From: a virus | DNA: 39,532 bases | Strand: one strand, 5' to 3' | IMG/VR virus record: IMGVR_UViG_3300004369_000046 | Span: 1 to 39,532 of that record | Part shown: in pieces, positions 7,406-21,534 of the stretch | Layout of the letters: each line of letters begins with the position of its first letter | Numbering within the stretch: position 1 is the first letter of the stretch | Translations under genes and position numbers: made by a program | Notes under the pieces: model-generated | The model's database searches: none | What the model was told of the DNA's origin: nothing | The model's input: only the letters and a program-made list of their open reading frames with translations

Positions 7406-7501
7406 TGGTAGTCCCGCCCGGATTCGAACCGGGATCGCTCTCTAATCTGGAGACATTTAACTGCGTATAAGGCAGGTGTTTTACCGTTAAACTACGGGAC
7501 C
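7406..7501 (-). tRNA. Atypical tRNA, apparent anticodon TAT (Ile), long variable arm
   Basis: Minus strand. Acceptor GGTCCCG/CGGGACT (first pair G-U), D arm GTTT...AAAC, T arm CCCGG-TTCGAAT-CCGGG, discriminator A, encoded CCA. The anticodon arm folds as CTGC-CTTATAC-GCAG with a C/T mismatch at its base, giving anticodon TAT (Ile, AUA). The variable region is about 26 nt and forms TCTC/GAGA, a class II feature normally seen in Leu, Ser and Tyr tRNAs. The fold is certainly tRNA-like; the isotype is uncertain. Confidence 0.8.
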
Positions 7502-7502
7502 T

Positions 7503-7586
7503 TGGTGCCCGCGGCCAGACTCGAACTGGCACGCCATAAGCGAGGGATTTTAAGTCCCTTGTGTCTACCTATTCCACCACGCGGGC
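7503..7586 (-). tRNA. tRNA-Leu (anticodon TAA)
   Basis: Class II tRNA on the minus strand. Acceptor GCCCGCG/CGCGGGC, anticodon stem GGGA/TCCC with loop CTTAAAA (anticodon TAA), a variable arm CGCTTATGGCG, T loop TTCGAGT, discriminator A and encoded CCA. It reads UUA, a codon common in AT-rich genes. Confidence 0.95.
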
Positions 7587-7590
7587 TATT

Positions 7591-7667
7591 TGGCCTGCCC
7601 TAGAGGATTCGAACCTCTGACCCACAGCTTAGAAGGCTGTTGCTCTATCCAACTGAGCTAAGGGCAG
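7591..7667 (-). tRNA. tRNA-Arg (anticodon TCT)
   Basis: Minus strand cloverleaf with acceptor CTGCCCT/AGGGCAG, D arm GCTC-AGTTGGAT-GAGC, anticodon loop CTTCTAA (TCT), T loop TTCGAAT, discriminator G and encoded CCA. It reads AGA, a codon often under-supplied in bacterial hosts and favoured by phages. Confidence 0.95.
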
Positions 7668-7671
7668 ATCT

Positions 7672-7748
7672 TGGTGGGCCCCCAGGGACTTGAACCCCGA
7701 ACCTACGGATTATGAGTCCGGTGCTCTAACCAATTGAGCTAGAGGCCC
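7672..7748 (-). tRNA. tRNA with CAT anticodon (Met or Ile2)
   Basis: Minus strand cloverleaf with acceptor GGGCCTC/GGGGCCC, D arm GCTC-AATTGGTTA-GAGC, anticodon loop CTCATAA, T loop TTCAAGT, discriminator A and encoded CCA. CAT is elongator Met, or Ile2 if the host TilS modifies C34 to lysidine. The body resembles bacterial Ile2, but I cannot separate the two by eye. Confidence 0.92.
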
Positions 7749-7781
7749 TAAACTGTGATTGTGTGAATGTCCTTCTTTTAC

Positions 7782-7873
7782 TGGCGGTGAGGGTGGGATT
7801 CGAACCCACGGTACCCATTGCTAGGTACAACAGATTAGCAATCTGCCACTTTCGGCCTCTCAGTCACCTCACC
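7782..7873 (-). tRNA. tRNA-Ser (anticodon GCT)
   Basis: Class II tRNA on the minus strand. Acceptor GGTGAGG/CCTCACC, anticodon stem CAGAT/ATCTG with loop TGCTA within TTGCTAA (anticodon GCT), a long variable arm (TACC...GGTA), T loop TTCGAAT, discriminator G and encoded CCA. It is the first gene of the tRNA cluster, about 9 nt below the likely transcription start. Confidence 0.95.
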
Positions 7874-19478: not shown

Positions 19479-19994
19479 CTAATTGTTTGATTTGTTTGCG
19501 TCGAGTAGTTGCTTCAATAGCTCGTCTCTGCTGATTACAACGCCTTCACTTTCCATAACACCGTCATCGTTATTTGAATCTTTTTTAATTTGGTGGTCTA
19601 GTTTTGCTTTTTGTAACTGTAGTTGCACCATCTTTAGCTTTTTATCCATCTTGGCTGTTTTAGCTGTGATAGCGTGTCCTAGTAGTCCGTTAGCTGTTTG
19701 TAAAATCATACCTGCAAATCGAGGATCTACATTCATACCAAGATCCATCAGGTCTTGAAACTTTTCTTGTGCTAAACTAGCAAGCTCATCCATTTCTTGG
19801 TCACTTGCTTCGAGGTCTCTGACTGTAGGGAGTGCAATGTTGATTTTATCAATAGCATTATCTACACTTCGAATAGTTTCTGTGTGTACTGCTATTTCCT
19901 GTCTGGTTTGTTCGACTGTTGGCTCATCTAGTTCTTTTGCTTCATGTACATCTGTAGAATCTAGATTAAAAAATTCTTCTAGCTTTTTTGTCAT
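19479..19994 (-). CDS. 16: Terminase small subunit (gp16-like)
   Basis: A 171-residue helical protein. The central part (AQEKFQDLMDLGMNVDPRFAGMI to KKLKMVQLQLQKAKLD, about residues 72-135) follows the T4 gp16 layout of two long helices that form the oligomeric ring: a helix, a PR-containing turn, a helix with Thr/Ala-rich segment and a Lys/Leu coiled coil. N- and C-termini are acidic and flexible, as in T4 (164 aa). It regulates gp17 ATPase and recognises DNA for packaging. GGAGG precedes the ATG with good spacing. Assignment rests on pattern, size and closeness to gp17; no invariant catalytic residue exists to check. Confidence 0.75.
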   Translation of the reverse strand: MTKKLEEFFNLDSTDVHEAKELDEPTVEQTRQEIAVHTETIRSVDNAIDKINIALPTVRDLEASDQEMDELASLAQEKFQDLMDLGMNVDPRFAGMILQTANGLLGHAITAKTAKMDKKLKMVQLQLQKAKLDHQIKKDSNNDDGVMESEGVVISRDELLKQLLDANKSNN

Positions 19995-20022: not shown

Positions 20023-20042
20023 TAACTTAGGTCTATAGATGA

Positions 20043-20068
20043 AAAAAGGCACCCTAAGGTGCCTTTTT
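20043..20068. terminator. Bidirectional intrinsic terminator
   Basis: An 11-bp stem AAAAAGGCACC/GGTGCCTTTTT with a 4-nt loop. It ends the TRAP-type gene transcript 20 nt after its stop and separates it from gp16. Confidence 0.9.
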
Positions 20069-20087
20069 CCTTAGTCAAAAATGCTAA

Positions 20088-21029
20088 TTATGCACGTTTG
20101 ATTGCATCAACGATAGCATGGTCGAAACCGTAATCCTTTTCGTAAAGATGAGCTGTGGCAGCGGCAAAACGCTCCTGCTCTTCTTTGCTTAGGCGTACAA
20201 CTTCAATGCTGTCTGCTTCGCAACGAGCTTGTGTCTTTTCAACATCAGCAATACTGATTGAACGCTCGTACTGTGCGGCAACTAGTGCGGCATCAGCAAC
20301 AATCTTCTGTTCAGCTTCGCTTAGTTCATTCCAGAAGCCTTCAGCAATTAGAATGCTTGTTAAGAATAAGCTATGCTCTGTGTGGTTAATAACTTTGGAC
20401 ACTTTGTTCTGTCCTAGTGCATAAACACGTGGGTATGTGCTTTCGCCAACTGAAACTGTTGAGTTGTCGATGTTTTCTGTTAGCTCTTCTAGTTCCATTG
20501 GAACAACTTCTGCACCCATTGCCTTGAATGTGTCAATAGCAACTGGTGAGAATGAAGTGCGAACCTTCATACCGCGTAGGTCTTCGATACGACGAACTGC
20601 TTCTTGTCCTGGAACAATGCGGAAGCCGCCGCTGTATGTGAAAGCTAGACCTTTAACAGCCTTACCGCTCTTAGATAGACCGTTTAGTAAACTTTTACCA
20701 ACTTCGCCTTCGAATACACGTGAAGCGTGATCGTGGTCTTTAAATAGGAATGGCATATCTAGCGCACGGAATTCTGGGCAGATCTGGCCTAGTGAAACTG
20801 TGTATGTCTGTGACATTTCAATTTCACGATTGTCTAATAGATCTACTAGGTCGTGCTTGCTAACTAGCTTGCCTTCTTGATACTTGTCTGAATACTCGCC
20901 TAGAGTCATTACCTCGATTTCAAATGCGCCATTGCTTTTTGAAGCAACTTCTGCTTCAAAAACTTTTGCGGCACGAATGAAAAGCTCGATTGGCTCGTGT
21001 GCGAGAACCCAACGGATTTTCTTTGTCAT
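20088..21029 (-). CDS. TRAP-transporter solute-binding (DctP-like) protein lacking a signal peptide
   Basis: A 313-residue protein with the fold pattern of DctP-type TRAP solute-binding proteins: WVLAHEPIELFIRAAKVFEAEV, FRALDMPFLFKDHDHA, AFTYSGGFRIVPGQEAV, LRGMKVRTSFSPVAIDTFKAMGAEVVP (with the conserved ligand Arg in KVRT) and the LTSILIAEGFWNEL region. Normal family members have a 20-30 residue export signal and work in the periplasm with DctQM. This one starts directly at the mature domain (MTKKIRW), has a good AAGGAG 8 nt upstream and no transporter partner genes, so it should stay in the cytoplasm or virion. It lies between gp16 and gp4, with its own terminator and a late-type promoter with a 5' hairpin, implying high late expression. 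Confidence 0.85.
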   Translation of the reverse strand: MTKKIRWVLAHEPIELFIRAAKVFEAEVASKSNGAFEIEVMTLGEYSDKYQEGKLVSKHDLVDLLDNREIEMSQTYTVSLGQICPEFRALDMPFLFKDHDHASRVFEGEVGKSLLNGLSKSGKAVKGLAFTYSGGFRIVPGQEAVRRIEDLRGMKVRTSFSPVAIDTFKAMGAEVVPMELEELTENIDNSTVSVGESTYPRVYALGQNKVSKVINHTEHSLFLTSILIAEGFWNELSEAEQKIVADAALVAAQYERSISIADVEKTQARCEADSIEVVRLSKEEQERFAAATAHLYEKDYGFDHAIVDAIKRA

Positions 21030-21073
21030 GATTTATAGTCTCCTTAATGGTTTCCGGAATTTAAAGGAATGCG

Positions 21074-21108
21074 AGAACCATATTACGGTTCTGCTACGTT
21101 TATTTACC
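21074..21108 (-). promoter_or_regulatory. Late-type octamer and 5' hairpin for the TRAP-type gene
   Basis: GGTAAATA (21108-21101, overlapping the gp4 stop) gives +1 near 21095. A 6-bp hairpin AGAACC/GGTTCT (21092-21074) begins 3 nt later. The leader continues about 45 nt to AAGGAG and the ATG. Confidence 0.45.
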
Positions 21109-21534
21109 TTTTCCTTGGTGGAATATCTGTTCTTCCGTGATTATTTTAAAATTTAAGCCTTTATTCTTACACCATGCTTTTGCGGCTTCCCATTTTACCA
21201 TGTTTAGCACTGCATATGCTTGGTCTCTTCTACTTTTAGCTTCTTGTAGACTTGTTTCTTTTTTGGGCTTAACTTCGATAACGTCTGCTTGATGCTTGCC
21301 ATTGCGATCAATATAATAGATCAAAAAGTCTGGAACGTAGATAGTTTGTTTACCAGTAAATGGATTTTTGTAATTAATATGTATCGCTTCGCTTGCCCAT
21401 TTAAGTATACTAGGATTATTGTCACAGAAGCGCATGAATACATGTTCCCAACTGCTACGATACGTAGGATCCCTTTTCCCTACATATTTTTCAGGATTTA
21501 GGATCTGATACTTACCCTGTGCATACTTACTCAT
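21100..21534 (-). CDS. 4: Head completion protein gp4 (TnsA-like nuclease fold)
   Basis: A 144-residue protein close in length and layout to T4 gp4 (150 aa). It shows the endonuclease pattern of the TnsA/restriction fold: Glu30 in RSSWEHVFMRF, Asp69 in VPDF and EVKPKK (E87xK89). NPSILKWASEAIHINY and FTGKQTIYVPDFLI are typical of the family. In T4 gp4 completes filled heads before tail joining and acts on DNA ends. Its ATG overlaps the preceding stop (ATGA), so it is coupled to the 127-aa protein in the series baseplate/tube protein, 127-aa protein, gp4. Confidence 0.88.
   Translation of the reverse strand: MSKYAQGKYQILNPEKYVGKRDPTYRSSWEHVFMRFCDNNPSILKWASEAIHINYKNPFTGKQTIYVPDFLIYYIDRNGKHQADVIEVKPKKETSLQEAKSRRDQAYAVLNMVKWEAAKAWCKNKGLNFKIITEEQIFHQGKGK

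Follow-up and report, generated by a model that had tools for sequence, protein, structure and literature searches.

What is a solute-binding protein of the TRAP transporter type doing among the virion genes of a phage, in a form that lacks an export signal? The question is raised by a gene on the minus strand of the window, by which we mean the whole 39,532-nt stretch of viral DNA analysed here (IMG/VR record IMGVR_UViG_3300004369_000046). The gene (20088–21029; ATG at 21029–21027 and stop codon at 20090–20088) encodes a DctP-type protein of 313 amino acids. An initial annotation had proposed that it is a repurposed binding protein produced in quantity late in infection, serving as a virion component, a sponge for a metabolite or a decoy for host transport.

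A full-length DctP protein without an export signal

The window protein matched the Pfam family PF03480 (DctP) over residues 18–298 (E = 2.6e-49) and the NCBI model NF037995 (TRAP_S1) at 1.1e-39, with a score of 136.5 bits against a cut-off of 50; its best sequence match in the PDB, found with phmmer, was 4xfe (8e-30). AlphaFold, supplied with 22 phage relatives, gave a model with a mean pLDDT of 95 and a pTM of 0.91, and a PDB fold search with this model returned TRAP binding proteins at the top (TM about 0.8–0.9), the two-domain TRAP fold being present. The full DctP-like fold claimed in the initial annotation is thus borne out, and the prediction gave no sign of an unrelated fold. The gene is under strong purifying selection (dN 0.022, dS 0.255 against the relative L001), and most copies in the family are 311–345 residues long, with no extra anchoring domain.

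The N-terminus of the window protein, MTKKIRWVLAHEP, leads directly into the first strand, which begins at residue 3 of the AlphaFold model. The reading frame is closed by a stop codon two codons ahead of the ATG. A ribosome-binding site, AAGGAG (21040–21045, minus strand), lies some 10 nt upstream of the ATG, and identical or similar sites are found in the relatives. All of the 153 phage DctP proteins measured have 4–8 residues ahead of the first strand and no signal peptide, whereas their secreted relatives have clear signal peptides. A hidden upstream start with a signal peptide was sought in the phage relatives and found in none, and a wrong start call masking a signal peptide could be ruled out in every phage relative that was checked. 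Because the scan patterns used contain conserved motifs, motif conservation is in part selected for; the distance from the start to the first strand forms no part of these patterns and is unaffected. The start at the mature domain, with its good ribosome-binding site, had therefore been read correctly.

We conclude that the window protein is a full-length member of the DctP structural family, yet not a member of TRAP transport. With TRAP binding proteins such as DctP and SiaP (PF03480), it shares the full fold, the conserved arginines and the ligand-gating network described below; it differs from them in lacking a signal peptide, in being cytosolic as judged by its sequence, in having no DctQ/DctM pairing and in its predicted late phage expression.

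The ligand site is retained

In SiaP, R147 and R127 contact the carboxylate, and a network formed by R127, E186 and H209 closes the cleft (PMC4089482). The window equivalents of R147, R127, E186 and H209 are R157, R137, E196 and H219, which are conserved in 86%, 90%, 95% and 100%, respectively, of the phage proteins compared (n = 104). The ligand-arginine region noted previously is thus present, and the gating network (R137/E196/H219) is intact. The canonical arginine R157 is absent in two relatives (L033 and L034), and the position of the canonical Asn187 is occupied by Ser or Thr in the leaderless phage proteins. Because the arginine/carboxylate contact restricts TRAP proteins to carboxylates (PMC4646407), the ligand of phage DctP is most likely a carboxylate.

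A late transcription unit with a predicted abundant product

A TAAATA element, the core of a T4-type late promoter, is located at 21101–21106 on the minus strand, where it overlaps the end of the upstream gene. The element recurs throughout the family: of 101 non-redundant phage DctP copies, 92 have it no more than 150 bp ahead of the start, compared with 6.7% of random stretches. When counted by ORF start, TAAATA preceded 88 of 102 DctP genes, as against 14% of PP-loop genes (see below), 33% of other ORFs and again 6.7% of random stretches. Within the window, 15 of the 22 minus-strand TAAATA sequences are followed by a minus-strand gene within 150 nt (p = 1e-9). Directly after the DctP stop codon comes an intrinsic terminator (20042–20071, minus strand) composed of a 13-bp hairpin and a T-run (z = −4.2). 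A simple terminator scan missed this hairpin, which is kept in three relatives (L001, L007 and L010). Terminators follow 43 of 100 phage DctP genes, compared with 26 of 486 control ORFs. The promoter and terminator that had been ascribed to the gene were thus both recovered, whereas the 5′ hairpin was not: the leader hairpin (AGAACC...GGTTCT; 21071–21095, minus strand) is weak (z = −1.1, not significant) and its sequence differs among relatives, and we rejected it as a conserved element.

Codon usage, a proxy that predicts rather than measures abundance, points to heavy production. Among the 31 window genes compared, the effective codon number (ENC) is lowest for DctP (34.3), which also has the highest CAI to sheath/tube codons. 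In a 171-kb relative, it ranks first in codon bias among 92 genes of at least 200 amino acids, ahead of the major head protein (ENC 37.4), and it is the most codon-biased gene in 21 of 45 loci (p = 4e-10); in a marine-like group (L066–L094), its codon bias is ordinary. From this bias we infer that DctP would be made late in very large, stoichiometric amounts. The late unit, the codon bias and the leaderless start support the initial description of a repurposed, late, abundant and non-exported binding protein, and there is good support for DctP as a late, leaderless protein of predicted abundance whose ligand site is intact. The 171-kb relative also encodes a second leaderless DctP (L032; G002 126106–127107), which is 44% identical and ranks fifth of the 92 genes in codon bias.

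Position of the gene in the virion block

The virion block of the window is syntenic with that of Pseudomonas phage PA5oct (Arenbergviridae; TerL 52%), its closest cultured relative, which has the same gene order but no DctP relative. Upstream of DctP lies a head-closure (gp4-like) gene (21100–21534, minus strand; phrog_218, 8e-42), an orthologue of PA5oct gp284 (45%), and downstream lies u171 (19479–19994, minus strand), an orthologue of the hypothetical PA5oct gp283 (35%). The location between gp16 and gp4 given in the initial annotation thus stands in part: the gp4-like assignment holds, whereas the gp16 identity of u171, which matches an unnamed PHROG and gp283, is unsupported. The genes for gp284 and gp283 abut in PA5oct, and the window has the DctP gene between their orthologues. 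Judged from this gene order, the window DctP gene is an inserted cargo, equipped with a putative promoter element and a terminator of its own, and does not belong to the regular content of the block. It is found inside the neck/tail/terminase block in the window clade only and lies elsewhere in the other relatives, with no stable linkage to virion genes. The window also contains a five-tRNA cluster (Ile, Leu, Arg, Met and Ser; 7406–7873) and a lone tRNA-Asn gene (1027–1102).

Distribution and origin of the leaderless family

When viral contigs were scanned with the window DctP as a single sequence, 37 loci of 36–97% identity were returned, and a profile scan found a DctP relative encoded in 330 viral contigs, the best 80 of which were retained. 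The annotated phage collection contained no DctP relative of more than 60% identity and no isolate with the gene; the matches found there, at 21–31% identity to ordinary-looking DctP genes in mostly unannotated records, were rejected as close relatives. Two UniProt entries from uncultured phages resemble, in size and identity, halves of proteins of the leaderless family. The literature searched on phage DctP/TRAP proteins yielded gene-list mentions only: TRAP solute receptor-like annotations are reported for large phages, namely uncultured Caudovirales and the Ralstonia phages RP12 and RP31 (PMC5468394), but these are names in gene lists, and an RP12 protein is a weak structural match that falls outside the leaderless family. 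Some loci (L036 7992–9533, L037, L140, L143, L165 and L187) have a split DctP, in which the gene for the N-terminal half stands apart from one or two genes for the C-terminal half; the C-terminal half begins with M-K-(I/V)-R-T-N, and the N-terminal half in L036 has its own terminator.

In a maximum-likelihood tree, the phage proteins and five cellular leaderless DctP proteins formed one clade (69 rows; 95/97). The phage copies thus stand beside secreted proteins of Bdellovibrionota, which bear signal peptides and are the next relatives of the clade, with weaker support for this placement; as the root was set at the midpoint and several outgroup branches are long, the deeper branching order is unsure. 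These Bdellovibrionota proteins (L102–L105), the closest cellular relatives outside the leaderless clade, share with phage DctP the signature W(L/V)LAH(E/D)P, TYSGG(F/Y)R and HSLFLT, but they are secreted and chromosomally encoded, and some adjoin genes that read as acyl-carrier and ketosynthase-like. The five cellular leaderless proteins (L097, L098, L099, L100 and L106) lack a signal peptide, as the phage copies do, but are encoded on contigs of chromosomal appearance, among ordinary bacterial genes; because their source is metagenome-assembled genomes, a misplaced contig is possible for each of them. In L097, L100 and L106, genes for an MFS permease and a 2OG-oxygenase-like protein precede DctP. 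Beside or near leaderless DctP in the bacterial genomes, there is a protein of about 200 amino acids with an HxD...H pattern like that of 2OG-Fe oxygenases and no Pfam match (L097 556–1161, L106 5381–5983, L100 4985–5707 and L098 9356–9982).

The residues H11, P13, H99, T131-Y132-S133-G134-G135, R201, H219, T224, E255 and R256 are common to the phage, the leaderless cellular and the secreted members, whereas DctP proteins outside these groups do not have them as a set. The ligand site is thus older than the move to the cytosol and has been kept. The leaderless clade is explained by a single loss of the signal peptide, starting from a secreted ancestor that resembled the Bdellovibrionota proteins.

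Linkage to PP-loop genes and TRAP transporter parts

Among 60 non-redundant DctP loci, 44 have a gene for a PP-loop ATP-pyrophosphatase; it shares the strand of DctP in 43 and lies no more than 1.5 kb away in 40. The density of PP-loop genes is 0.25 per kb within 2 kb of DctP, compared with 0.06–0.09 per kb further out (p = 1e-7), and a reciprocal scan via the PP-loop protein recovered DctP in 53 of 80 loci. The PP-loop proteins carry SGGxDS; the strict motif accounts for only half of the loci, and profile iteration unites them in one superfamily. A fold search gave weak but consistent matches to GMP, carbapenam, beta-lactam and NAD synthetases and to LarE, and a sequence-profile search against the PDB returned nothing meaningful. 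A motif scan found no PP-loop gene in the 39.5-kb window, and none adjoins DctP in the window clade, the large relatives of which have two or three elsewhere. Since PP-loop genes have an ordinary codon bias and mostly no late element of their own, their production in equal amounts with DctP is not obvious. We ascribe the linkage in part to shared metabolic islands of jumbo phages. A family of about 250 amino acids, of unknown function, is encoded directly upstream of asparagine-synthetase-like PP-loop genes, sometimes in repeated pairs (L018 5015–7022, L218 8290–12058 and L219 8959–12700).

Other recurrent neighbours of DctP are genes for signal-peptide-bearing TctC-type proteins, Rieske and 2OG-like oxygenases, desaturases, B12-radical SAM and ATP-grasp proteins. 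Of 60 DctP loci, 12 encode an exported TctC-type protein, and in jumbo-phage contigs signal-peptide proteins of the TctC/Bug type adjoin both DctP and PP-loop genes (L029 4873–5790, L025 7065–7970 and L026 8127–9005). The TRAP membrane partners DctQ and DctM, reported earlier as missing, were indeed not found among the annotated window neighbours or in most large relatives, and DctM was absent from most phage records searched, including the window relatives G002 and G003; one phage group, however, has both. Immediately upstream of the leaderless DctP in seven phage contigs (L057 4808–7806, and L040–L042 and L054–L056) lie genes for an exported DctP and for DctM, joined by DctQ where the contig extends far enough. 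The L057 set is a complete phage TRAP transporter, with DctQ (PF04290, 2.5e-20), DctM (PF06808, 1.7e-60) and the exported DctP, and adjoins the leaderless DctP, a ring-hydroxylating oxygenase gene and a PP-loop gene. A phage of this type thus has one DctP for export and a second that stays in the cell.

A proposed cytosolic role

We give an even chance to the proposal that leaderless DctP is an abundant cytosolic carboxylate-binding protein, a buffer or carrier, for a small-molecule pathway of the phage PP-loop enzymes. In such a scheme, a TRAP-type Venus-flytrap protein would have left transport to act in the cytosol. A small carboxylate, imported or made, would be bound by DctP and, as the gene linkage suggests, processed by phage enzymes, chiefly by PP-loop ATP-pyrophosphatases, enzymes that use ATP to activate carboxylates or sulfur acceptors, with 2OG-Fe or Rieske oxygenases also taking part in some phages. 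The closed cleft would hold the ligand, either to present it to an enzyme or to make it unavailable to host or phage. In the window clade, the gene would be carried as cargo, its own transcription unit being set between two conserved virion-region genes. Among the three roles offered originally, a cytosolic ligand-binding one (buffer, carrier or sponge) is favoured because of the family-wide PP-loop linkage, the shifting genome position and the leaderless cellular copies outside virion blocks. Since the membrane parts of a TRAP transporter meet their binding protein in the periplasm, a decoy for host transport is unlikely, and nothing specific to the virion was found beyond late timing, abundance and the location in one clade. 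Against a carboxylate buffer stand the lack of a PP-loop gene in the window (motif scan) and next to DctP in the nearest clade, the ordinary codon bias and usual lack of a late element of PP-loop genes, and the loss of R157 in L033 and L034.

A virion role, in which a protein of binding-protein fold would be made late and abundantly as a decoration or an internal head protein and would perhaps still bind a ligand, agrees with the gene's own late element and terminator and with its codon bias at or above that of the major head protein, and the window-clade gene does sit in the neck/tail/terminase block. We consider such a role unlikely but keep it in view because the timing and abundance would fit: the position of DctP is untied to virion genes in most relatives, PA5oct is without DctP in an otherwise syntenic block in which several of the neighbours are virion proteins by mass spectrometry, no extra anchoring domain is present, the leaderless copies of cellular origin are surrounded by ordinary bacterial genes, and the ligand-gating network is retained. 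Binding-protein folds have turned into enzymes in MqnA and THI5. That DctP has likewise become an enzyme, or an enzyme subunit with the PP-loop ATPase, would agree with its tight linkage to PP-loop and oxygenase genes and with the invariance or near-invariance of H11, H99, H101, Y132, E196, R201, H219, E255 and R256. The same signature residues occur in the secreted Bdellovibrionota relatives, however; they are thus older than the relocation to the cytosol and in keeping with a ligand site. Very high expression would be unusual for an enzyme, MqnA and THI5 are absent among the sequence and fold matches listed, and we regard an enzymatic role as quite unlikely.

A continued part in transport, in which DctP either reaches the periplasm without a signal or serves the cytosolic side of a host or phage TRAP transporter, seems very unlikely to us. 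The seven contigs with DctM and an exported DctP (and DctQ where complete) directly upstream speak for it, as do the exported TctC-type proteins, but where the phage TRAP set is complete, the transporter comes with an exported binding protein of its own, and most phage records searched, G002 and G003 among them, have no DctM. We attach hardly any credence to a counter-defence role, in which DctP would act as a sponge for an immune signal of the host; a cytosolic, predicted abundant protein with a small-molecule-binding fold would suit this purpose, but counter-defence is needed early, whereas DctP copies almost throughout have the late element. Moreover, TRAP binding proteins favour carboxylates (PMC4646407), and the PADLOC defence and anti-defence profiles gave no match to DctP and, for its partners, only a weak QueC match.

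Extending the proposal of a cytosolic carboxylate buffer, jumbo phages may have domesticated a secreted receptor into a very abundant late intracellular protein that captures one carboxylate for a PP-loop pathway, and some of them may have added their own TRAP uptake and tailoring oxygenases, giving an import and biosynthesis system with a dedicated ligand buffer; this fuller scenario is offered tentatively. Transport binding proteins are defined by their action outside the membrane, and a conserved intracellular family with predicted expression at least equal to that of the capsid protein would be a new use of the fold. It would suggest that environmental jumbo phages run a metabolic programme not described before, and identification of the ligand would give the chemistry of the pathway.
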